A stretch of 64,000 bases of DNA, from positions 259,419 through 323,418 of the forward strand of contig JAFFTF010000004.1 of NCBI GenBank assembly GCA_022803075.1. Direction: 5' to 3'. This document shows, piece after piece, positions 142 to 17,569 of this stretch (position 1 is its first letter; each line of letters opens with the position of its first letter). The DNA is from Micrococcales bacterium 31B (lineage in GTDB: Bacteria; Actinomycetota; Actinomycetes; Actinomycetales; Dermabacteraceae). The notes beneath the pieces are model-generated. The model saw nothing but the letters and a program-made list of their open reading frames with translations, was not told where the DNA came from and made no database searches. The position numbers and the translations under genes are program-made.

Positions 142-1317
142 TCAGACCAGGAGCCTGAGCGGATGATTGATGAGGTCGACGAAGGTTCGCAGCCAGTCGG
201 CACCCACCGCCCCGTCTACTGCCCGGTGGTCCCACGACACGGTGACGCTCATCATGGGTCGAACGCGGGGCTGGCCGTCGACGGCGACCACGCGATCCGA
301 GATCGCACCGACCGCGAGGATCCCGCTCTGGGGCGGATTCAGGATCGCGCTGAACTCCTCCACCCCATACATGCCGAGGTTGGACACGGCAAAGCTGCCA
401 CCCGAGAGTTCGTCGTGGCGCAGCGTGCCTGCGCGCGCTCGCTTGGCGAGGTCGGCTATGGTCGAACTGATCTGCGACAGGGTGAGCGTGTTGGCGTCGC
501 GCACCACGGGCGTGAGCAGGCCGTCTTCTGTGGCCACCGCAATGGCGATGTTGGCCGAGTCGAATGCCAGCACGTGATCGCCGCCCCAGATGAGGTTCGC
601 GCGCGGCACCTCGACGAGTGCCCGCGCGATCGCGAGCACCACGAAGTCATTCACCGAAACTTTGGTGGGGCGAACGGCGTTGACGTCGCTGCGCAGGGCC
701 AGCAGGGCACTCACGTCGCACTGCGCCGTGAGGTAGAAATGGGGCACCGTCGACTTGCTCTCAGTGAGTCGGCGAGCAATGGCACGGCGCATACTAGACA
801 GTTCGAGCCTCCGTCCCGCTGCGGGAGCGACCGGGGTTTGAGGCGTGTCTGCGACGAGCGCTTCGAGGTCGCGTCGCACGATGCGTCCGCCGGGCCCGGT
901 GCCCCGGATCCCTGCAAGGTCGAGACCGCGCTCTCGAGCGAGCCGACGCACGAGCGGAGACGCAAATAGGCGTGCCGGGGCAGCTGGCGCGACCACGGGG
1001 GCGTCCCCGCTGGCTAGGGTCGGTGCCAGGGCCGGGGTATCGGACGCGCGCGGGGCAGGGTTGGCCTCGCTCGTGCCGTCGCCGCCGTCGAGTTCGAGCA
1101 GCGGCGCGCCGACGACGAGTGGTTGGTTCGCGTCTACGAGGAATCGCGTCACGACACCCGCCGCGTCTGCCGCGATCTCCACGGTCGCCTTCTCGGTTTC
1201 GACTTCGGCAATGGGCGTGCCCACGTCAACCGCGGCACCCTCGGCGATGAGCCAGGAGTTGACTGTGGCCTCGACCATGCCAGTGAGCACCTCGGGCATG
1301 CGCATGATGGCACCCAT
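142..1317 (-). CDS. Dihydrolipoamide acyltransferase (E2) of a 2-oxoacid dehydrogenase complex
   Basis: E2 core of a 2-oxoacid dehydrogenase complex, 391 aa. One N-terminal lipoyl domain (about 5-78) has EVETEKATVEI, with Lys43 the predicted lipoylated residue. A peripheral-subunit-binding domain (about 115-150) has ASPLVRRLARERGLDL and GTGPGGRIVRRDL. The C-terminal catalytic domain ends with SVTVSWDHRAVDGA, which contains the HxxxDG active site. The start codon overlaps the E1 stop by one base (TAATG), so translation is probably coupled. No E3 gene is visible. Acetoin dehydrogenase (AcoC-like) or branched-chain E2 are both possible; the partial SDR downstream slightly favours the acetoin reading. 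Confidence 0.9.
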   Translation of the reverse strand: MGAIMRMPEVLTGMVEATVNSWLIAEGAAVDVGTPIAEVETEKATVEIAADAAGVVTRFLVDANQPLVVGAPLLELDGGDGTSEANPAPRASDTPALAPTLASGDAPVVAPAAPARLFASPLVRRLARERGLDLAGIRGTGPGGRIVRRDLEALVADTPQTPVAPAAGRRLELSSMRRAIARRLTESKSTVPHFYLTAQCDVSALLALRSDVNAVRPTKVSVNDFVVLAIARALVEVPRANLIWGGDHVLAFDSANIAIAVATEDGLLTPVVRDANTLTLSQISSTIADLAKRARAGTLRHDELSGGSFAVSNLGMYGVEEFSAILNPPQSGILAVGAISDRVVAVDGQPRVRPMMSVTVSWDHRAVDGAVGADWLRTFVDLINHPLRLLV

Positions 1318-3503
1318 TAATTGCCTCCCATCGCGCGACGAATTTCTTCGAAAGCTGCCGCGACCTCTTCGGTGCGGGCGATTGCGGCGCGTTCAAGCAC
1401 CTTGGAGATACTCGGCGACGCCTCTTGACCGGTGACTCGCGCGACGGGTTGGTCGAGCCAGTCGAAGAAGCGGCGCTGGATCTCGTCGGCCAGCCACGTG
1501 CCGTACGACGTGCCCACGGCGCCCTGCTCGACGATGACGGCAACGTTGGTCTTGCGGATGCTCGCGCCGATGGTCTCCCAGTCGACCGAGGCCCGGTCGA
1601 GCCAGCGCAGGTCGATGAGGTCGGCGTCGAGCCCTGTGAGATCGAGGGCCTCTTCGCAGTGCTGGACCATCGAGAGGTAGGAGATGACCGTTGCCTCGCT
1701 GCCAGTGCGGCGCACGGCTGCGGTGGCAAGCGGGATGATGTAGTCGAGGTTGCCCGCGGGAACGCTATCGCGCCGCTGGTAGAGGTCTACGTGTTCGATG
1801 ACCAACACCGGGTCTTGCAGGGCGAGTGCCGCATTGACGAGCCCGATGTAATCGGCAGCGCAGGAGGGGGCCACGATACGCCAGCCGGGGCTCGTGGCCA
1901 TGATTCCCGCGGGGTCCATCAGGTGCTGCGAGCCGTATCCGGACCCCATGGCGACCTTCGTGCGCATGACGAGAGGAACGGGGTTTTCTCCGCCAAACAT
2001 GTGGCGCGCCTTGCCGATTTGATTGAACAGTTGATCGGCGGCGACCCAGAGAAAGTCGGGGTACATGAACTCAACGACAGGGACGAAGCGGCGGTCGAGT
2101 GCGATACCGCCGCCCAGGCCCGCAAAGGCGTTCTCGCTGATCGGGGTGCCGAGCACGCGACCCGGAAATCGTTCCGCGAGGCCGCGCGTGGCGCCATTGG
2201 TGCCGCCCTTGAGATGATGGACGTCTTCGCCCAAGACGACGATGCGGTCGTCGAGTTCCATACGGCGGTCCATCACATTGGCGACCACATCGACAAAGCG
2301 TGACTGCGTGGTCTCACCGTGGTAGGTGGAGGGTTCGAGCGTGGGGAGGCCGACGAGTTCGCTCGCGTCGCCTCGAACACCCACGTTGACGAATGCCGTA
2401 TCGGGCCACAGTTGGGGGCGAATGCGCTGCTTGCCCTGATGCTCGGGGTCGGCCTCCAGGAGTCGAGCGACGATGCTGTCGAGCGCGGCGCGCGCCTGGT
2501 CTCGCACCGAAGCGACGCCCGCGGCGTCGATTAGGCCACATGCGATCATTTCGCGAGCGACGCGGTCTAGCGGGTCCCTCTCTCGCCACGCAGCTTCTTC
2601 GGCCTTGTCGCGGTAGCCGAACGCGCTGCCCGCGAAGGGGCCGTTTTGGTGGAAGAAGCGGTACGTTTCGGCCTCGATGATGACGGGCCCCCGGCCCTCG
2701 CGGGCATGGAGCAGAGCCTCCTGCATCGCCAGGTGGACGGCCAGGGGGTCCATGCCATCGACGCGCCACGCGGGAATGCCGAAGCCCTGCCCTCGGCCGG
2801 AGAGTCGAGGTTCGGCTGTGACCTCGTCGACGTGGGTCGATACCGCGTAGAGATTGTTTTCAATGAAGAAGATCAACGGCAGACGCCACGCGGCCGCGAG
2901 GTTCATGGTCTCGAGGACGGAGCCGATGTTGGTGGCGCCGTCGCCAAAATACGTGACCGTGACGTCAGTGGTTTGCGCATGGCGCTGCGACCACGCGTTT
3001 CCGGCGGCGAGGGGGACGCCGCCGCCAACGATGGCGTTGGTGCCTAGCGCGCCCGCCTCGAACCACTGCAGGTGCATGGAGCCGCCGCGGCCGTGGCAAT
3101 AGCCCGGAGCGAGGCCGAGGATCTCGGCGAGTGTGCGGTAGAGAACGCAGTCGGTCGCCTCGTCGACAAGTTGGCTCAAGTCACCGAAATCGGGGCGCAC
3201 ATACCCAAGTGCCTTGGCGAGAAACTGATGGTGACCGCGGTGCGACCCGTTGATGGCGTCAGTGGAGCGCAGCCCGAGGATCGAACCGACGGCGCCACCT
3301 TCTTGGCCGATGCTGGAGTGTGCGGGGCCATGTACGAGGCCTTCGCCGGCGAGTTCGAGGACCACCTCTTCGAACGTACGGATGAGTTGCAGTTGGCCGA
3401 GAAAGTTGCGCAGCAGGGTGGGGTCGGCCTGGGCCCAGTCGGCAGAGGTTGCACTGAGAGTTGCCCACGGCGTTGTCGGCTGAAGAGTCTTGTGATCAGG
3501 CAT
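1317..3503 (-). CDS. Fused alpha/beta E1 component of a thiamine-dependent 2-oxoacid dehydrogenase
   Basis: A 728-residue fusion of the E1 alpha and beta chains that are usually separate. The alpha half (about 1-370) carries the thiamine diphosphate motif starting GDGATNIGS at residues 187-195 and continuing to an IENN. The beta half (about 390-728) begins RFVDVVANVMDRRMELD and contains VVLGEDVHHLKGGTNGAT and GTPISENAFAGLGGG, typical of transketolase pyrimidine-binding domains. It decarboxylates a 2-oxo acid and passes the acyl group to the lipoyl arm of the adjacent E2. It is the first gene of the operon, with a good promoter upstream at 3573-3601. No clear Shine-Dalgarno sequence precedes the ATG. 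Confidence 0.88.
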   Translation of the reverse strand: MPDHKTLQPTTPWATLSATSADWAQADPTLLRNFLGQLQLIRTFEEVVLELAGEGLVHGPAHSSIGQEGGAVGSILGLRSTDAINGSHRGHHQFLAKALGYVRPDFGDLSQLVDEATDCVLYRTLAEILGLAPGYCHGRGGSMHLQWFEAGALGTNAIVGGGVPLAAGNAWSQRHAQTTDVTVTYFGDGATNIGSVLETMNLAAAWRLPLIFFIENNLYAVSTHVDEVTAEPRLSGRGQGFGIPAWRVDGMDPLAVHLAMQEALLHAREGRGPVIIEAETYRFFHQNGPFAGSAFGYRDKAEEAAWRERDPLDRVAREMIACGLIDAAGVASVRDQARAALDSIVARLLEADPEHQGKQRIRPQLWPDTAFVNVGVRGDASELVGLPTLEPSTYHGETTQSRFVDVVANVMDRRMELDDRIVVLGEDVHHLKGGTNGATRGLAERFPGRVLGTPISENAFAGLGGGIALDRRFVPVVEFMYPDFLWVAADQLFNQIGKARHMFGGENPVPLVMRTKVAMGSGYGSQHLMDPAGIMATSPGWRIVAPSCAADYIGLVNAALALQDPVLVIEHVDLYQRRDSVPAGNLDYIIPLATAAVRRTGSEATVISYLSMVQHCEEALDLTGLDADLIDLRWLDRASVDWETIGASIRKTNVAVIVEQGAVGTSYGTWLADEIQRRFFDWLDQPVARVTGQEASPSISKVLERAAIARTEEVAAAFEEIRRAMGGN

Positions 3504-3563
3504 GAATCCGTATTCGCGTCATCATTACGCAGGCGACGTGTGTGCCCGCGCTGGGGAGGAATA

Positions 3564-3638
3564 ATTGGATCCAATATAGGCATACAATGCACCCAATTCA
3601 ACCCTTCTTCTCGCAAAAGTGATGTAATCGGATCCAAT
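3564..3638 (-). promoter_or_regulatory. Promoter with two palindromic operators for the E1-E2-SDR operon
   Basis: Reading leftward, TTGAAT (3601-3596), a 17-bp spacer and TATATT (3578-3573) form a near-consensus promoter. A perfect 12-bp palindrome ATTGGATCCAAT (3564-3575) overlaps the -10 box and probable start site. A second copy with one mismatch, ATCGGATCCAAT (3627-3638), lies upstream of the -35 box, 63 bp away, or about six helical turns. This is repressor-type architecture with possible looping. No regulator gene is adjacent, so the protein that binds it is unknown. Confidence 0.7.
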
Positions 3639-4210
3639 CAGCCCAGCGAGGCCTGGCTGGCGCGAGGGGCGACTGTCGCGCTGGTGGGTTCGTTGAGCTC
3701 TGAGTCCCGCTGATTCGCCGCCCTGAATCAACCCTGTCTGGGCGCTCGGCAGTCAACCGCCCCAAGCCCCGCGTATTTATTAGTCATTTGCGTGAATTAA
3801 AGGTTGACCAGCGCAGCAGGTACTCCGCGTTTTTGATTCGATGTGCTGGTAATGAGCTGGGGTTATTGAGTGGGAGCCCCGCCAAAACATGCGATTAATG
3901 CAGACGAACTCTGCTGTCAGCCTGGCACTATGCGACCGTATCCCGGTTCATCCGCTCGTGGCGCGCCGCTGCTACACCTGCGATTATTACGATAATCAGT
4001 GGCTCTGCGCGATTTTTTGTCTGCGTTCGCACGGTACTTTATGAGGCAGCACTGGCAACAAATGAATTGTTCGCCATTCGTTATGAGGAATGTCGTCAAT
4101 CGTGTTGCGAGCCACCTGGATATGTGTGATCTTTCAACTACAGGGCAAGCGCTTCCACACCAGAATCGCAACCCTCGCCCCGCCCCACTCCACCTCGCAT
4201 TGGCACCGTC
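3639..4210. other. Gene-free, relatively A+T-rich spacer
   Basis: About 570 bp between the divergent E1 operon and the M3-like gene. Base composition is visibly lower in G+C than the flanks. I see no credible coding frame with a ribosome site. Only the distal part (about 4140-4210) is needed to express the rightward gene, and I could not identify a convincing promoter there. Confidence 0.5.
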
Positions 4211-6415
4211 ATGTACAACACGCAGTTCACGTCTGTTGCGCCCCGCGCGCCGCACGACTGCCTGCGCGTGCCTGGGCTCCCGCCGAGCAATCCCTTCTCT
4301 GAGTTGCGCACTGCCGACTACGGCCTCGAAGACTTCGACCGCATCACACCCCAACACATTCTGGAGGCGGCAGAGGCGGCCGTCGCGCACTACCGCGCAA
4401 CCCTCGCCCTCGTCATCGCAGACCCCAGCCCGCCCACGTTCGACAACACCATCAAGCCCCTCGAACTCGCGCAGGGTGCCGTCAATCGAGTACATAACGT
4501 CATCGCGGTGCTGAACATGGTGCACAACTTCGAGGGGTCCGCCGACGTGGCCGCGCGCGTGCGCACCCTCGTGGCGGACTGCCGCACCGACATGCAGGCC
4601 TCGCAGGGGCTGGTGGAGCGCATTCAACGGCTGCACGCGGGCGTCCTCAAGGGCTACGACGGCGGAGATGCGGCCGCCTTCGAATGGCTCACCGACGAGC
4701 AGCGCCACCTCATTGACCTCATGTTTCAACGCCAACTGGCCATCGGTGTGCACCTCGGGCCGGGGCACCGCGCTCGCCTTCACGACATCACCGAAGAGCT
4801 CGAACACCTGCGCCACCAATTCACCGAGAACTTCGAGGCCGCGAGCGACTCCGCCTCGTTCTGGGTGAGCGGCCGGACCGAGCTCGCGGGCATGCCCGAA
4901 TCGCGGCTCGTCGCGATGCGCGCGGCGGCGCGCGACCGCGACCCAGCGCGATTCGACCGCGAACGCGGCGGCTACCTCATGGAGGTGCGCGGCACGCATC
5001 GCATCAAAGACCTCGAACACCTCCACAACCGTGACCTGCGCCGGCGCGTCTACGAGCGCGGGCAAGACCGCGCCGCCGACACCAATCTGCCGCTCGCCAT
5101 CCGCATCTCAACACTGCGAGCCGAGGCCGCGCGACTGCTCGGATACGCGACCCACGTGCACCGCAAGACGCACCTCGAAGCGTCGGGCACCCCCGAGGTC
5201 GTCACTAACCTCCTGCACGAACTGACCGAGCCCGTCATGCGACAAGCCGAAGCCGAGCTCGAGGTGCTGCGTGACCGCGCGCGCCGAGACGGTATCGACA
5301 ACCTCGAACCCTGGGACATCGCCTACTATCTCGAGGCGGTGCGCAACGAGCAGTTTCACCTCGACCACGACGACCTCATGAACTACCTCGAACTGCGCAA
5401 TGTGGTCGAATACGGCCTGTTCCACGCCGCGAAACAGCTGTACGGGCTCACGTTCCGCCGTCGCATGGACCTCTTCGCGTACCACCACGACGCCCAGGTC
5501 TACGAGGTGTTCGACGGCCCGCCGGGACCCCGCAACAGCGGTATCGGGCTGCTCATCAACGACCTGTACGCGCGCGACGATTCGACCAATAACACCTGGA
5601 CCCACGCGTTCACCACCGACGTGGGGCTGCTGCGCACCCAGCCCATCGTGGTGCTCTCTAGCTGCCTCGACCCACCCACTTACGGCGTGCCGTCGCTGCT
5701 GACGCTCGCCGAGGTCATCGACCTGTTCCGCAGCTTTGGGCACATGCTGCACCTGCTCCTGGGGCGCAGCCACTACCCCGACACCAGCGCGCTCGAACTG
5801 CCGTTCGACTATCTGTTCTACCCCATGCAGGTCAACGGCATGTGGGCCACGAGCCCCGACGTGATGCGCAACTACGCAATTCATGTCGATACCGGCGAAC
5901 TCATCCCGCGCGAACTGATTGACCGCATCGCACGCAGCGCGTCGTGGGGCATGGGCCTCGCCACGGCGGTTACGCTCGCCGCTACCGTGGTCGACCTCGC
6001 GTGGCACTCCCTCGAAGCCGACGCAGAAGGCGCCACTCCCCACGCGCCCCGCACGCCCGCCGAGGCGCGCGCCTTCGAACGCGACGCTCTGCTGCGGGCG
6101 GGCATAGACCTGCCGGGCATCACCGATTACCCCATCACGCAGGTGTTCGCGCATGCCTTCGCGTACGCCGATTCCGGGTACTATGCCTACCTGTTCTCTG
6201 ACTGCCTGGAGGCCGAGACGGTGACGTGGTTTACCGCGAGTGGGGGGCTGACCAGAGAGAACGGCGAAGCCTTTAAGCGATCGATTCTCGAACCGGCGGC
6301 CACCCGGGCCCCGCTCACCGCGTTTCGCCGCTTTGCGGGTGCGGGCGTCGCCGCGGCCGGCTTTTTGCGACGTTACGGCTTCGGGTTGCCCGTGCCGCTT
6401 ACCCTGGAACCATGA
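4211..6415 (+). CDS. M3-family peptidase homologue lacking the zinc site (pseudo-peptidase)
   Basis: A 734-aa, full-length relative of Dcp/oligopeptidase A metallopeptidases and of the active paralogue at 15455-17569. In active M3 enzymes the metal site is HExxH plus a Glu about 25 residues on. Here HEFGH is replaced by RSFGH (Arg507, Ser508, His511), and the third ligand, in DFIEFPSQ of the paralogue, is Phe536 in DYLFYPMQ. The catalytic-region THIF has become TQVF. The frame is intact and the fold-specific segments (for example FDNTIKPLEL and NAFTTDVG-like regions) persist, so this looks like a maintained non-catalytic protein rather than a decaying gene. It overlaps the next gene by 4 bp (ATGA). 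The start is the first ATG; its ribosome site is weak. Confidence 0.85.
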   Translation: MYNTQFTSVAPRAPHDCLRVPGLPPSNPFSELRTADYGLEDFDRITPQHILEAAEAAVAHYRATLALVIADPSPPTFDNTIKPLELAQGAVNRVHNVIAVLNMVHNFEGSADVAARVRTLVADCRTDMQASQGLVERIQRLHAGVLKGYDGGDAAAFEWLTDEQRHLIDLMFQRQLAIGVHLGPGHRARLHDITEELEHLRHQFTENFEAASDSASFWVSGRTELAGMPESRLVAMRAAARDRDPARFDRERGGYLMEVRGTHRIKDLEHLHNRDLRRRVYERGQDRAADTNLPLAIRISTLRAEAARLLGYATHVHRKTHLEASGTPEVVTNLLHELTEPVMRQAEAELEVLRDRARRDGIDNLEPWDIAYYLEAVRNEQFHLDHDDLMNYLELRNVVEYGLFHAAKQLYGLTFRRRMDLFAYHHDAQVYEVFDGPPGPRNSGIGLLINDLYARDDSTNNTWTHAFTTDVGLLRTQPIVVLSSCLDPPTYGVPSLLTLAEVIDLFRSFGHMLHLLLGRSHYPDTSALELPFDYLFYPMQVNGMWATSPDVMRNYAIHVDTGELIPRELIDRIARSASWGMGLATAVTLAATVVDLAWHSLEADAEGATPHAPRTPAEARAFERDALLRAGIDLPGITDYPITQVFAHAFAYADSGYYAYLFSDCLEAETVTWFTASGGLTRENGEAFKRSILEPAATRAPLTAFRRFAGAGVAAAGFLRRYGFGLPVPLTLEP

Positions 6416-7542
6416 CGTGGATCCGCGAACGCAGCATCACCGTGCCCGCCCCCCGCGACGACGTGTGGGGGGTCATTTCTAACCTCGCCGCGTGGCCCGC
6501 ACTGCTCGGCGAGTTCAACAACCTGGTGCCCAGCGAGGGCCAATTGCGCGCCGGCGGCGCGGGTACCTTCACCATCGCCGGCCTCAAGGCCGCCGCCCAC
6601 CTGATCGCGCCCGGCACCTTCTATATTCGACACTTCGCCCCCGGCCAGGGGGTCGAACTGGTGCTGCAGGCGCCCCGCGCCCAGTTCGTCGTGGGTTTCG
6701 CACTCGACGATGCGCCCCTGGACGCCCCCGTGGCCGGGTCGGCTGCCCCGCTTTCGGGCCCAGCCACCGTCCTCACGCAGACCCTGCACATCGAAGGCGT
6801 CACCGAGCGCGTGGTGCGGCCGGTCGCCGAACGCCTCGACGCCCGCCTCGATGTCTTGGGCGCGCGCATTCTCGGCCAACTCGGCGGGGTGGCCGAGTCT
6901 CGCGGCCTCAAAGTCGTGATCGCGGGTGAATCCGGCGATGTCGCCACTCGCCTCGCCGCCCGTGCCGCCCTCCGCGGGCACCGGCCCGTACTGCTGCTCA
7001 GCGAATCTCGCCCCGACCTGCCCTTCGCGCAGGCCTACTGGAACGGCACCGACCTGGGTGGCTGGGTCAATGAGGTGCGCGAACAGCCGGGCCGCACCGT
7101 GCTCGTGAACCTCACTGCGGACGCCCCCGCCCACCTTGACGGTGCCGCCCCGGGGGTTGCGGCCGAGGGCTACGCCGCGCGCGGCACGCATTCGCTGATC
7201 ATGGCCACGCGGCAGTGTCACGAGCCCCTGCGCGGCTGGGTGCAACTCGAGTACCGCGGGGCGCATGCCGAGGTCCCCGCTGAAACTCATGCACCCGAAA
7301 CCCCGGCCGACGAGCGGCCCAACACGCTGGAACGGTACGTGTTGCGCGCACCAGTGGCCCCGGCGTCCGCCCTCAACCCGCTCGCGGTGGTTGCGGCGGC
7401 GGGGGCCGAGACGCAGATTGGCAGGGGTAAGCTTGGACGCCGCCTGCGCCGGTTGGCAGAGCTGGGCCGCACCCAGATTGACCCGTCCGCGGTGGAGTTG
7501 TGGGTCGCCGACGTGCTGGAACGGCTCGACGCCTGGCGCTAA
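6412..7542 (+). CDS. SRPBCC-domain protein fused to a degenerate TIGR01777-like epimerase domain
   Basis: 376 aa. Residues 1 to about 160 form an SRPBCC/polyketide-cyclase-like ligand-binding domain: ERSITVPAPRDDVWGVISN, then GTFTIAGLKAAA, and a C-terminal helix. From about 165 a Rossmann-like segment begins VVIAGESGDVATRLA and is followed by YWNGTDLGGW and RTVLVNLTADAP, the order seen in TIGR01777 NAD-dependent epimerases, which in actinobacteria can carry an N-terminal SRPBCC domain. The nucleotide loop lacks the third glycine of GxxGxxG, so dinucleotide binding is doubtful. It is co-translated with the zinc-less M3 homologue (4-bp overlap). Substrate and function are unknown. Confidence 0.6.
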   Translation: MTWIRERSITVPAPRDDVWGVISNLAAWPALLGEFNNLVPSEGQLRAGGAGTFTIAGLKAAAHLIAPGTFYIRHFAPGQGVELVLQAPRAQFVVGFALDDAPLDAPVAGSAAPLSGPATVLTQTLHIEGVTERVVRPVAERLDARLDVLGARILGQLGGVAESRGLKVVIAGESGDVATRLAARAALRGHRPVLLLSESRPDLPFAQAYWNGTDLGGWVNEVREQPGRTVLVNLTADAPAHLDGAAPGVAAEGYAARGTHSLIMATRQCHEPLRGWVQLEYRGAHAEVPAETHAPETPADERPNTLERYVLRAPVAPASALNPLAVVAAAGAETQIGRGKLGRRLRRLAELGRTQIDPSAVELWVADVLERLDAWR

Positions 7543-7556
7543 TTACTGGCGCTACG

Positions 7557-8060
7557 TCACTGGCAGAACTTCGAGATCAGGTCGTCGGAGACCTGCTTGG
7601 CCTGGTCGGCCGAGACCTCCTGGCCGGTGATCTCCTGCACGGCGGTGGTGATCGAGCCGACCGTGTCAACGTTCGACTGCTTGGCCGCACACGCCTGCGC
7701 CCCCAGCTGGGTCAACTGGTCTGACGTGAGGTTGGCGAGTTCGGGTACCGAGGCGGCGAGCTTTTGGGCCTCCGCGCTAATCTGCTCGGTGGAGAGCCCT
7801 GCGACGGCCGACTTCACGTTAGCGAGCTGTTCGTCGAGGGCGGCGCTGGCCGCGTCTTTGGCGCTGTCGGTCGCGCTCGCGACGGCGCTGCTCGCGGCGT
7901 CTTTCGCGCTGTCAGTGGCGCTCGCGGCGGCACTGCTGGCCGCAGCTTTGGCGCTGTCGGTGGCTGACGTGGCGGCGTCCTGAGCGGCGCTGCACGCCGT
8001 GATTCCGAGGGCGAGGGTAGCCGCGAGGCCAAGCAGGGCGAAGTTCTTACGCATCATCAT
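7557..8060 (-). CDS. Ala-rich repeat lipoprotein
   Basis: 167 aa (or 165 from the third ATG of a run of three). The signal peptide MMMRKNFALLGLAATLALGITAC ends in a lipobox with Cys23, so the protein is predicted to be lipidated and exported. Residues 25-75 are Ala/Ser/Asp/Lys repeats of about 15 aa (SAKDAASSAVASATD type), LEA-like and probably helical. A small C-terminal domain follows with two Cys (QACAAK and the final FCQ). Convergent with the preceding gene. No recognised family; the repeats vary in purity, suggesting copy-number change. Confidence 0.75.
   Translation of the reverse strand: MMMRKNFALLGLAATLALGITACSAAQDAATSATDSAKAAASSAAASATDSAKDAASSAVASATDSAKDAASAALDEQLANVKSAVAGLSTEQISAEAQKLAASVPELANLTSDQLTQLGAQACAAKQSNVDTVGSITTAVQEITGQEVSADQAKQVSDDLISKFCQ
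7852..7975. repeat. 45-bp tandem repeats inside the lipoprotein gene
   Basis: Two adjacent 45-bp units (7852-7896, 7897-7941) and a partial third encode the 15-residue Ala-rich repeats of the lipoprotein. Units are imperfect but in frame, so expansion or loss would change protein length without a frameshift. Confidence 0.65.
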
Positions 8061-14573: not shown

Positions 14574-15455
14574 TCACCCCTTCGGCGTCAGGTGCACGTT
14601 CATGATGGCCCGCGACAGCGCCTCGATCGGCTCGGCCGGCCCCAACGGGTTCGCCACCAGGGCGATGTCGACATCCGGCAGTTCAGGCAAACCATGGCGC
14701 TGCAACGGCAGCAGGTCGCCCGGCACCCGCGACAGCGCCAGCACGCACACCCCGAGCCCCGCCCGAGCGGCGGCCAGCACACCGTTGATCTCGCGCGTAT
14801 TGCACGCGATGCGCCAACGTAACTCCGCCGACTCCAACGCCTCGAGCGCGACCTTGCGCGAATACGAGGGCGCGGGATACACCACGAGAGGCACCGGCTG
14901 GTCGAGGTCAAGCACGAAGTTCGGCAAACCCACCCACGCGAGTCGGTCGCGACGCACGGGCGCGCCCACGTGCGCGTCCGGCTCTTGATTAATGAACACC
15001 AAATCGAGGTGCCCCGCCTCCAGGCGCCGCCGCAAAATACCCGACTGCGTCACCGTGAGTTCGAGATTGATCTGCGGGTAGAGCTGGCGAAAGTCGCGCA
15101 GAATGCGCGGCAGTTCGGAGATTGCGAGTTCGTCGGCGGCGCCGAAGCGCAAGCGGCCGCGCATCGCCGAGCCGGTAAAGTACGCCACCGCCTCGTCGTG
15201 CGCCGCGAGGATGGACCGCGCGAAACCCGCCATCGCCTCACCGTTGTCGGTGAGCGCCACCCGCCGCGTATCGCGCACGATCAGCGCGCGGCCCGCCACG
15301 TCTTCGAGCCGCTGCACGTGCTGACTGACCGTCGGCTGCGAGAGCCCCAACTGCTTCGCGGCGGCCGTGAAACTGAGCCGCTCAGAAACCGTGAGGAACG
15401 TGCGCAGCAGCGCCGGGTCGAAGACGCGATCACCCGGCGGCGACGAATACACCAC
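14574..15455 (-). CDS. LysR-family transcriptional regulator
   Basis: 293 aa from GTG. N-terminal winged helix: LLRTFLTVSERLSFTAAAKQLGLSQPTVSQHVQRLE, written here as consecutive parts FLTVSERLSFTAAAKQ and LGLSQPTVSQHVQRLE, is classic LysR HTH. The C-terminal effector domain begins LRFGAADELAISELP. The start overlaps the M3 peptidase stop by one base (TAGTG), so this regulator is co-translated with the peptidase, which is unusual because LysR genes are normally divergent from their targets. The effector is unknown. Confidence 0.92.
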   Translation of the reverse strand: MVYSSPPGDRVFDPALLRTFLTVSERLSFTAAAKQLGLSQPTVSQHVQRLEDVAGRALIVRDTRRVALTDNGEAMAGFARSILAAHDEAVAYFTGSAMRGRLRFGAADELAISELPRILRDFRQLYPQINLELTVTQSGILRRRLEAGHLDLVFINQEPDAHVGAPVRRDRLAWVGLPNFVLDLDQPVPLVVYPAPSYSRKVALEALESAELRWRIACNTREINGVLAAARAGLGVCVLALSRVPGDLLPLQRHGLPELPDVDIALVANPLGPAEPIEALSRAIMNVHLTPKG

Positions 15456-17569
15456 TACGCCACCAAGAATCCGTTGCGTTCAAGCAGCGGTTCGACCGCC
15501 ACGTCGCGGCCCCTGAACTCGCGATACGCGTCGAGGGGGTCGCGGGTCGCGGCAATGCCGAGAATCAACGCGCGATAGCGATCGCCATTCTCGCGGGTGA
15601 GCCCGCCGTTGCTCTTGTACCAGGCCACGGTGTCGGCGTCGAAGGTCTCCGACCACAGGTACGTGTAGTAGCCGCCCGAGTAGCCTCCCGCGAAAATGTG
15701 CGTATACGAGGCCGACATGCGCCGCTCGCTGAGGTGCGGGAACGGGATTCCCGCCGCGAGCACCAAGTCGCGCTCAAACGCGACGGCCTCGGCGGGCGTG
15801 GTGGGGGCGCCGGACGCGCTGCCGCCCGTCCGCGGCAGCGAATGCCACCCAATGTCGACCGCGTTGTTTGTCAGCTGGTGGCAAGTGGCGAGCCCCAGAC
15901 CCCACAGCCGCGACGCCTCAATGGCGTCTACGGTGGCCTGCGGCAATATCTCGCCCGTCTCAACGTGCAGCGCATAGTTTTCGAGCACCTCGGGCCACAG
16001 GGCCCACATCTCGTTGACTTGGCTGGGGAACTCGATAAAATCCCACGGCACCTCGAACGCGCACGTCTTGCGATAGGTGCTGCGCGCGAGCAGCCCGTGC
16101 AGGGCGTGGCCAAATTCGTGAAAGAGCGTGCGCACGTCTTGCAGCGTCAGCAGGCACGGGTCGTCACCCGTGGGTTTGACGTAATTGCAGTTATTGATCA
16201 CGACGGGGCGCATGGCGAGAGAGGAGTTGGCGAACCGGAACGCGTTCATCCATGCGCCCGGACGTTTCGTGTCGCGCGAGAAGAAGTCGGCCACGAATAG
16301 GGCCATGCCCTCATTCGGGGTGCCGGGTGAGCCGTCGAAAACCTCCCACACCTTCACGTCTGGCAGGTAACCGTGCAGTTCGGGGCGCGGTACGAAGGTG
16401 AGGCCGTAGAGCTTTTCGGCGGCGAAGAAAATGCCCCGCTCGACCACGTTGGTCAGCTCGAAGTACTGCCGCAGCGCGGCAAAGTCGAGGTTGAACCGCT
16501 CGGCCTTGAGACGCTCGGTGTAGAAACTGATGTCCCAGGCCTCCACCTGCTCGATGCCGTCGCGGGCGGCGGCCTCGCGAATCGCCGCGAGTTCGACCTC
16601 GGCGGTCGCGACCGCCGGTGGAGTCAGCGCCTGTAGCACCGCGGCCACCGCCGCGGGCGTCTTCGCGGTGCGCACCGACGTGAACAGGGCGTGATACGAC
16701 TCGTGCCCCAGCAGCTTGGCCATCTCGGCCCGCAGCGCGGCCTCGCGGCAGGCGATCTCAAGGTTCGGTTCGACGCAGCGGCTATTCGCCGCGAGGTACA
16801 CCCGCTCGCGCATCGCGCGATTCGTCAGCTCGCGCACCTCGGGCAGGTTGGAGAGGCCGCGAATCTCGAGCAGGTACCCGCCCTCGCGCGCGAACCGCTC
16901 TGGGTCGCTCGCCTCGGCGGCGGCCCGGGCCGCGCCGATGCGACTCTCGCTGAGCCCGTCGAGATCGGCCACGTCGCTCACCCAGAAGTCGGCCGCCTTG
17001 CTCGCGTCTACGAGGTTCGCCGAATAGGTGACGCCGAGAGACGAGAGTTCAGACGCGATCTCTTGCAGCCGCGCGCGCTCGGCGGGCCCGAGGCCCGCTC
17101 CACTGCTGCGCAGGTCATCGCGGTACATCTCGGCCACGCGCCGCTGCTCGCCGTCGAGCGCCGGGCTCTCGAGAATCGCCTCGACTCGCTGCAGCAACTC
17201 GGGCGATAGGCTGAGCTCGGTGTGGATCGCCGCCATCTTCGGCTCATATTCGACCGTCACCTCGCGCACCTCGGGCGTCTGGTGCGACGAATCCACGATG
17301 TTCAGCACGCCACTCACCCGCGCGAACGCGGCGCCGTCGATCTCGAGCGGCAGCAACGTGTTGTCGAACGTTGGCGCGTCGGGGCTGGCAATAACGGACG
17401 CGAGGGTGGCGCGTAAACGGGCCATCGCGGCGTCCAGGGCTGGCCCGTAATGTTCGGGACGAATCGCCTCGAAATTCTCGAGCGCGTAGGGGAGGGGGCT
17501 GAGGCTGCGGAAGGGGTTGTCGGCGGGGAGTTCAGGCAGGTCGAAAGGGCTGGCGGCGGGGGAGGTCAT
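15455..17569 (-). CDS. M3-family oligopeptidase / peptidyl-dipeptidase, active form
   Basis: 704 aa, full length for Dcp/OpdA-type M3 metallopeptidases. The zinc site is intact: LFHEFGHALHGLL supplies HExxH, and DFIEFPSQ 25 residues on supplies the third ligand Glu. SYTHIFAGGY and GGYYTYLWS near the C-terminus carry the substrate-stabilising His and Tyr residues. It cleaves short peptides in the cytoplasm. It starts 6 bp after the GyrI-like gene and ends overlapping the LysR gene. A non-catalytic paralogue lies at 4211-6415. Confidence 0.93.
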   Translation of the reverse strand: MTSPAASPFDLPELPADNPFRSLSPLPYALENFEAIRPEHYGPALDAAMARLRATLASVIASPDAPTFDNTLLPLEIDGAAFARVSGVLNIVDSSHQTPEVREVTVEYEPKMAAIHTELSLSPELLQRVEAILESPALDGEQRRVAEMYRDDLRSSGAGLGPAERARLQEIASELSSLGVTYSANLVDASKAADFWVSDVADLDGLSESRIGAARAAAEASDPERFAREGGYLLEIRGLSNLPEVRELTNRAMRERVYLAANSRCVEPNLEIACREAALRAEMAKLLGHESYHALFTSVRTAKTPAAVAAVLQALTPPAVATAEVELAAIREAAARDGIEQVEAWDISFYTERLKAERFNLDFAALRQYFELTNVVERGIFFAAEKLYGLTFVPRPELHGYLPDVKVWEVFDGSPGTPNEGMALFVADFFSRDTKRPGAWMNAFRFANSSLAMRPVVINNCNYVKPTGDDPCLLTLQDVRTLFHEFGHALHGLLARSTYRKTCAFEVPWDFIEFPSQVNEMWALWPEVLENYALHVETGEILPQATVDAIEASRLWGLGLATCHQLTNNAVDIGWHSLPRTGGSASGAPTTPAEAVAFERDLVLAAGIPFPHLSERRMSASYTHIFAGGYSGGYYTYLWSETFDADTVAWYKSNGGLTRENGDRYRALILGIAATRDPLDAYREFRGRDVAVEPLLERNGFLVA

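Follow-up and report, generated by a model that had tools for sequence, protein, structure and literature searches.

An erased zinc site in a candidate pseudopeptidase of family M3 encoded together with a degenerate SRPBCC-SDR protein

MEROPS keeps non-peptidase homologues in many peptidase families, so that inactive members of M3 may already be listed there but unstudied. For active Dcp, passages of the K-26-DCP structure paper give HEXGH as the zinc motif (PMC5157764). Passages of a review describe pseudometallopeptidases such as the inactive alpha subunit of the M16 mitochondrial processing peptidase (MPP), FtsHi (M41), and CPXM2 and CPD-III (M14) (PMC11266112); the terms family M3, thimet and neurolysin are absent from the text of that review. 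Searches of open-licence PubMed Central, read by title and abstract start, turned up nothing on an inactive M3 protein. Several metallopeptidase families are known to include pseudopeptidases, and none in M3 was found in the passages of the review or in these searches.

The window, meaning the whole stretch of 64,000 nucleotides that was analysed, is part of contig C23 of a 3.93 Mb genome. An M3 gene of 734 open codons had been reported here by a first-pass annotation, and the frame was verified, with no stop in 734 codons. Its product, P0001, is a member of peptidase family M3 by homology and matched Peptidase_M3 (Pfam PF01432) at 233.5 bits (cut-off 27) over profile positions 4-456 of 457. 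Among solved structures, the closest are those of K-26-DCP, a peptidyl-dipeptidase from an actinomycete, and of E. coli Dcp.

3504-4210, no strand: divergent spacer between the 2-oxoacid dehydrogenase operon (minus) and P0001 (plus), from the sequence
4211-6415, plus strand: P0001, candidate M3 (Dcp-type) pseudopeptidase, 734 aa, with zinc and catalytic residues erased (frame, profiles, alignment)

Codon usage of P0001 was coding-like over the whole length, in every 240-base window tested. No clear ribosome-binding site was seen upstream of the ATG at 4211, and no RNA families were found between 3400 and 8300. The spacer holds two copies, at 3560-3645, of a palindrome-like element containing GGATCCAAT, operator-like in appearance, and one of the copies falls within a promoter predicted on the minus strand for the 2-oxoacid dehydrogenase operon. 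In that operon the E1 alpha and beta parts are apparently fused into one protein of 728 aa (1317-3503, minus), which is followed by the E2 gene at 142-1317.

The active site was read from an alignment of P0001, the intact paralogue, a third M3 copy of the same genome and 39 homologues. Contact residues were taken from passages of the K-26-DCP structure paper (PMC5157764), and their numbers were mapped by hand through the alignment to the solved relatives, with an offset of 12 that was consistent with HEFGH, Trp419/Met420, Tyr599 and Tyr606. Three segments were located by alignment with the 39 homologues.

5729-5743, plus strand: former HEXXH motif, now RSFGH, residues 507-511
5807-5818, plus strand: former zinc-Glu motif D-x-x-E, now DYLF, residues 533-536
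6152-6190, plus strand: C-terminal active-site loop, residues 648-660

His, Glu and His occupied positions 507, 508 and 511 in 39/39 aligned homologues. In P0001 the zinc ligand His507 (K-26-DCP His463) is replaced by Arg and the catalytic Glu508 (Glu464) by Ser, so that RSFGH departs from the HEXGH zinc motif. Position 536, equivalent to Glu492 of K-26-DCP, which we take to be the third zinc ligand, is Glu in 39/39 homologues and Phe in P0001. Both motif changes had been described in the first-pass annotation (HEFGH to RSFGH, DFIE to DYLF), and the alignment bears them out. The annotation had also counted a C-terminal catalytic His as lost, and this we correct: the His593 equivalent is present as His648, aligned with His in 39/39 homologues. 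At the C-terminal side of the cleft, where active enzymes have this His and two Tyr, P0001 also keeps the Tyr606 equivalent as Tyr660 and lacks that of Tyr599, the Gly-Gly-Tyr turn having gone with a one-residue deletion. Trp419 is retained (W463), as is His467 (H511). Other contact positions changed as well (K-26-DCP to P0001: Arg415 to Thr459, Gly416 to Asn460, Met420 to Thr464, Thr484 to Leu528, Val486 to Leu530, Arg488 to Phe532, Val491 to Leu535). These losses suggest that P0001 is catalytically inactive.

Three M3 genes were found in this genome, and the two beside P0001 differ sharply in their motifs.

15455-17569, minus strand: intact Dcp-type M3 paralogue, 704 aa, 44% identical to P0001 and its nearest relative (alignment, tree)
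14574-15455, minus strand: LysR-type regulator directly behind the intact paralogue, the frames meeting at 15455 (context only)
Contig C13, 113298-115292 (L048:8798-10792), minus strand: third M3 copy, erased (alignment; Pfam, 172.5 bits)

An active paralogue 9 kb away had been claimed earlier. An intact gene does stand at 15455-17569, with HEFGH, DFIE and THIFAGGY and with the zinc ligands, the Glu, the His and both Tyr all present; that it is active is a prediction from these residues. Its residues equivalent to Gly416, Thr484, Arg488 and Val491 of K-26-DCP are Pro, Phe, Trp and Ile, respectively. Between 11188 and 13966 on the minus strand lie an ABC transporter ATPase and two probable membrane proteins, possibly acquired; GC3 was about 0.6 in two measured genes there versus about 0.85 in most neighbours.

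The third copy, on contig C13, comprises 665 aa from the homologous start and is open, inside an 802-codon frame. AALGG replaces HEFGH and Ala replaces the zinc Glu, which leaves no zinc ligand, and the equivalents of His593, Tyr606 and His511 (P0001 numbering for the last) are also missing. By this alignment it is further erased than P0001. Genes for carbonic anhydrase, alanine dehydrogenase and fumarase were found near the C13 copy, and no adjoining SRPBCC gene was seen. It had no match outside its own genome at E 1e-58 or better among 396 genomes of the order.

In the tree, a 100/100 branch separated the three M3 copies from the 39 homologues, and they stayed together (100/100) after class members and outgroups were added. 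This larger tree held the three own copies, 21 of the 39 homologues, 7 of 14 class loci (L099-L112) and 3 plasmid records, with one outgroup row (L130) trimmed to 518 aa. Without the C13 copy, P0001 and the intact paralogue paired with 100/100 support, on branches of 2.15 and 0.60, respectively; P0001 is therefore a duplicate within this lineage. Horizontal gain of P0001 was considered and found unsupported, as P0001 has its nearest relative within this genome and is local in codon usage. The two erased copies grouped with 91/40 support in the larger tree, the AU test rejected neither alternative to this pairing (p 0.42 and 0.29), and their shared changes were not in excess (9/38 vs 2/6 and 3/10). 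Whether they go back to a single inactivation is undecided, and long-branch attraction is possible.

The pairing of P0001 with an intact nearest relative 9 kb away invites an analogy with the inactive alpha subunit of the M16 mitochondrial processing peptidase: P0001 might serve the intact Dcp paralogue as a subunit, regulatory or structural. Passages of the review (PMC11266112) describe pairs of an inactive and an active protein in M16. We consider this quite improbable here, because the two genes, about 9 kb apart on opposite strands with other genes between, are not co-transcribed.

Among 47 genomes of the family, matches reaching E 1e-20 or better were found in 13, the window genome included, and the 12 others had one each, at no more than 35% identity. 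Of 396 genomes of the order, 211 had a match at E 1e-60 or better, and full-length identity among the matches listed did not exceed 37%; mostly two candidates were scored per genome, which means that a weakly matching second copy at another locus may have escaped detection. In G077 a partial match at 42% was seen, and its sequence proved to be of the active type. Six P0001 peptides scanned over 84,980 species retrieved no relative, and a pattern of the dead motif over the same species gave 37 matches, with no M3 homologue among them by tblastn; both scans respond to exact words and could overlook orthologues that have diverged. Relatives in plasmid records were all below 60% identity, the best matches listed being at about 30-34%. 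No orthologue with the losses of P0001 was found in the 47 family or 396 order genomes, in which the genus is represented by one genome. Maintenance between species is accordingly not supported by these searches, in which no orthologue was found and the genus had one genome.

The cleft segments of P0001 still contain His511, His648, Tyr657, Tyr658, Tyr660, Trp463 and Asp533, on which a new enzymatic activity, independent of the zinc site, could have been built. Such an activity seems to us highly improbable, given that, for want of orthologues, no newly conserved motif can be recognised and that the equivalents of His511 and Tyr660 are gone in the other erased copy.

The gene that follows P0001 overlaps it by ATGA.

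6412-7542, plus strand: shrunken SRPBCC-SDR39u1 (TIGR01777-like) protein, 376 aa (ATGA overlap with P0001, alignment)

Translational coupling of the two genes, proposed in the first-pass annotation, is what this overlap predicts. No Pfam family exceeded its cut-off for the downstream protein, residues 6-56 weakly matched the SRPBCC-type PF10604, and TIGR01777 gave no match up to E 10; the TIGR01777 cut-off was passed by a separate gene on contig C31. A relative of the downstream gene was found in 13 other genomes of 248 of the order and in none of the 46 other family genomes, and the longest match was to an SRPBCC-SDR fusion (L115; 29% over residues 1-278). Motifs were counted in 12 relatives, after 2 of 14 rows had been dropped (L126, the SRPBCC part only; L127, the genome's own TIGR01777 gene). 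The Rossmann loop reads AGESGDVA and lacks the third Gly, whereas AGG-x-G-x-LG was present, with small variations, in 12/12 relatives, which agrees with the degenerate nucleotide loop noted at first pass. The AST-type motif and the QMTGVA-type and QWFSWIH-type blocks, present in 12/12 relatives with small variations, are absent, as are large stretches of the SDR half. With the active site of P0001 and the SDR motifs of its neighbour both gone, the pair in the window amounts to two erased enzymes. No conserved link between M3 and SRPBCC-SDR genes was seen: in 7/7 genomes with both places listed (of 13), the relative was not beside an M3 gene. On the minus strand at 7557-8060, flanked by the SRPBCC gene and an MFS transporter, is a gene for a small protein that resembles a lipoprotein and in which ATDSAKDAASSA-type segments recur.

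Constraint on P0001 was estimated by proxies. Invariance was defined as identity in at least 95% of the 39 homologues, which gave 119 columns, and a gap was counted as a loss (1/119 columns in P0001). The active-site segments were set at residues 455-545 and 638-670, with boundaries drawn after the alignment had been viewed, and held 49 of the columns, leaving 70 outside. P0001 lost 25/49 columns inside and 17/70 outside (odds ratio 3.25, p 0.0035), retaining 24/49 and 53/70; the intact paralogue lost 7/49 and 15/70, retaining 42/49 and 55/70, and the C13 copy lost 37/49 and 29/70. When the published K-26-DCP contacts were used as the inside set, the losses of P0001 were 9/13 versus 33/106 (p 0.012). 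With these contacts removed, the excess in the segments was weaker (16/36 vs 17/70, p 0.046), and among columns kept by the paralogue, also without published contacts, p was 0.085. The near-equal loss outside the cleft (17 vs 15 of 70), together with the excess inside, is the pattern expected of a kept inactive protein.

Scored with a profile built from the 39 homologues, P0001 reached 557 bits, the intact paralogue 741 and the C13 copy 301. Neutral decay was simulated (n = 200) by point mutation from the paralogue as ancestor, with two GC equilibria and four identity levels and with indels ignored; the highest scores were 455 bits at 70% identity and 169 bits at 44%. The score of P0001 lay above all of these simulations, which argues against simple decay. 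Substitutions between P0001 and the paralogue were also milder than the simulated ones (mean BLOSUM62 -0.34 vs -0.65 to -0.84). In 480 further simulations of stops, without indels, the frame was still open in 0/160 at an equilibrium GC of 0.65, 2/160 at 0.75 and 13/160 at 0.86. Chance is no explanation, given the coding-like codon usage throughout and a score far above simulated neutral decay. These proxies, within one genome, argue for constraint on the fold of P0001 outside the cleft, part of which could predate the inactivation.

The main alternative is that a Dcp duplicate without its active site is drifting towards a pseudogene and has been caught before any stop or frameshift. The failure to find an orthologue with the same substitutions (47 family genomes, 396 order genomes, exact-word scans) fits this account, as do the long branch of P0001 (2.15 vs 0.60 for the intact paralogue), a coupled neighbour that has likewise lost its motifs and the lack of a clear ribosome-binding site. 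It would have to accommodate a profile score and a mildness of substitution far outside the neutral simulations, the invariant residues kept outside the cleft (53/70 vs 55/70 in the intact paralogue), an open frame with normal codon usage, and two separate erased copies that are both open. On balance, we regard decay as unlikely.

The reading we favour, with reasonable though limited confidence, is that P0001 is a pseudopeptidase, specific to this lineage and maintained, whose cleft has been remodelled; it would be non-enzymatic and most likely a binding protein. The mark of a pseudopeptidase is seen in its lost catalytic residues, its intact relatives and, by proxies in one genome, constraint elsewhere. 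The earlier claim of a gene maintained though erased gains from the scaffold, the profile score and the second erased copy; the orthologues that should share its substitutions were sought and none was found, with one genome of the genus. A further erased M3 copy and a neighbour with an erased SDR half strengthen the finding, and the lack of orthologues in the genomes searched limits it.

In the favoured reading, a duplication in this lineage would have produced P0001 and the intact paralogue from a common ancestor, after which P0001 would have lost zinc binding and catalysis and been retained for its fold. Polar residues of the cleft that anchor peptide and zinc have mostly given way to hydrophobic ones (Thr484 to Leu, Arg488 to Phe, Glu492 to Phe; K-26-DCP numbering), and the scaffold would have stayed constrained as the cleft changed. 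The clam-shaped cleft would then hold a peptide or other hydrophobic ligand, or dock a partner, without cutting. Two copies with an erased cutting centre and the rest conserved, one of them in an operon with a second erased enzyme, probably point to a binding job. SRPBCC is a ligand-pocket fold, and the coupled relic, in which the SDR half is without its nucleotide loop and its core, probably shares in this non-enzymatic work. We infer that P0001 is expressed and has a ligand, and it may form a complex with the downstream protein or the intact paralogue. Predicted structure models were poor (mean pLDDT 34.0 and 43.7), and a fold search with one of them, which placed M3 structures first at a TM of about 0.27, was given no weight. 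More ambitiously, the M3 fold may have been turned here into a small non-catalytic binding family (RSFGH, AALGG) beside an intact Dcp, with P0001 and its operon partner, the SRPBCC-SDR39u1 protein, forming a ligand- or peptide-sensing complex without enzymatic activity; this remains doubtful, though conceivable. If P0001 is kept, it offers a natural test of the role of a clam-shaped oligopeptidase cleft without catalysis, with the intact paralogue in the same cell as a control, and the operon of two erased enzymes points to common non-enzymatic work.

Set beside known systems, the downstream protein aligned with SRPBCC-SDR39u1 (TIGR01777/YfcH-like) fusions of the same order over the SRPBCC part and the Rossmann start, and it has lost the AGG-x-G-x-LG loop and the AST-, QMTGVA- and QWFSWIH-type blocks that those fusions possess. 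P0001 showed full-length homology to Dcp (MEROPS M3), with 369.7 bits to K-26-DCP (PDB 5l43) and 296.9 bits to E. coli Dcp (PDB 1y79). On NCBIfam PRK10280, P0001 scored 343.6 and the intact paralogue 505.7 bits, both under the Dcp cut-off of 944. The equivalents of Trp419, His467, His593 and Tyr606 of Dcp are retained in P0001, which differs by His463 to Arg, Glu464 to Ser, Glu492 to Phe, Arg415 to Thr, Met420 to Thr, Thr484 to Leu, Arg488 to Phe and deletion of Tyr599. The pseudometallopeptidases in the passages of the review (PMC11266112) belong to families other than M3; like P0001, they have lost zinc or catalytic residues, have kept the fold and have intact relatives.
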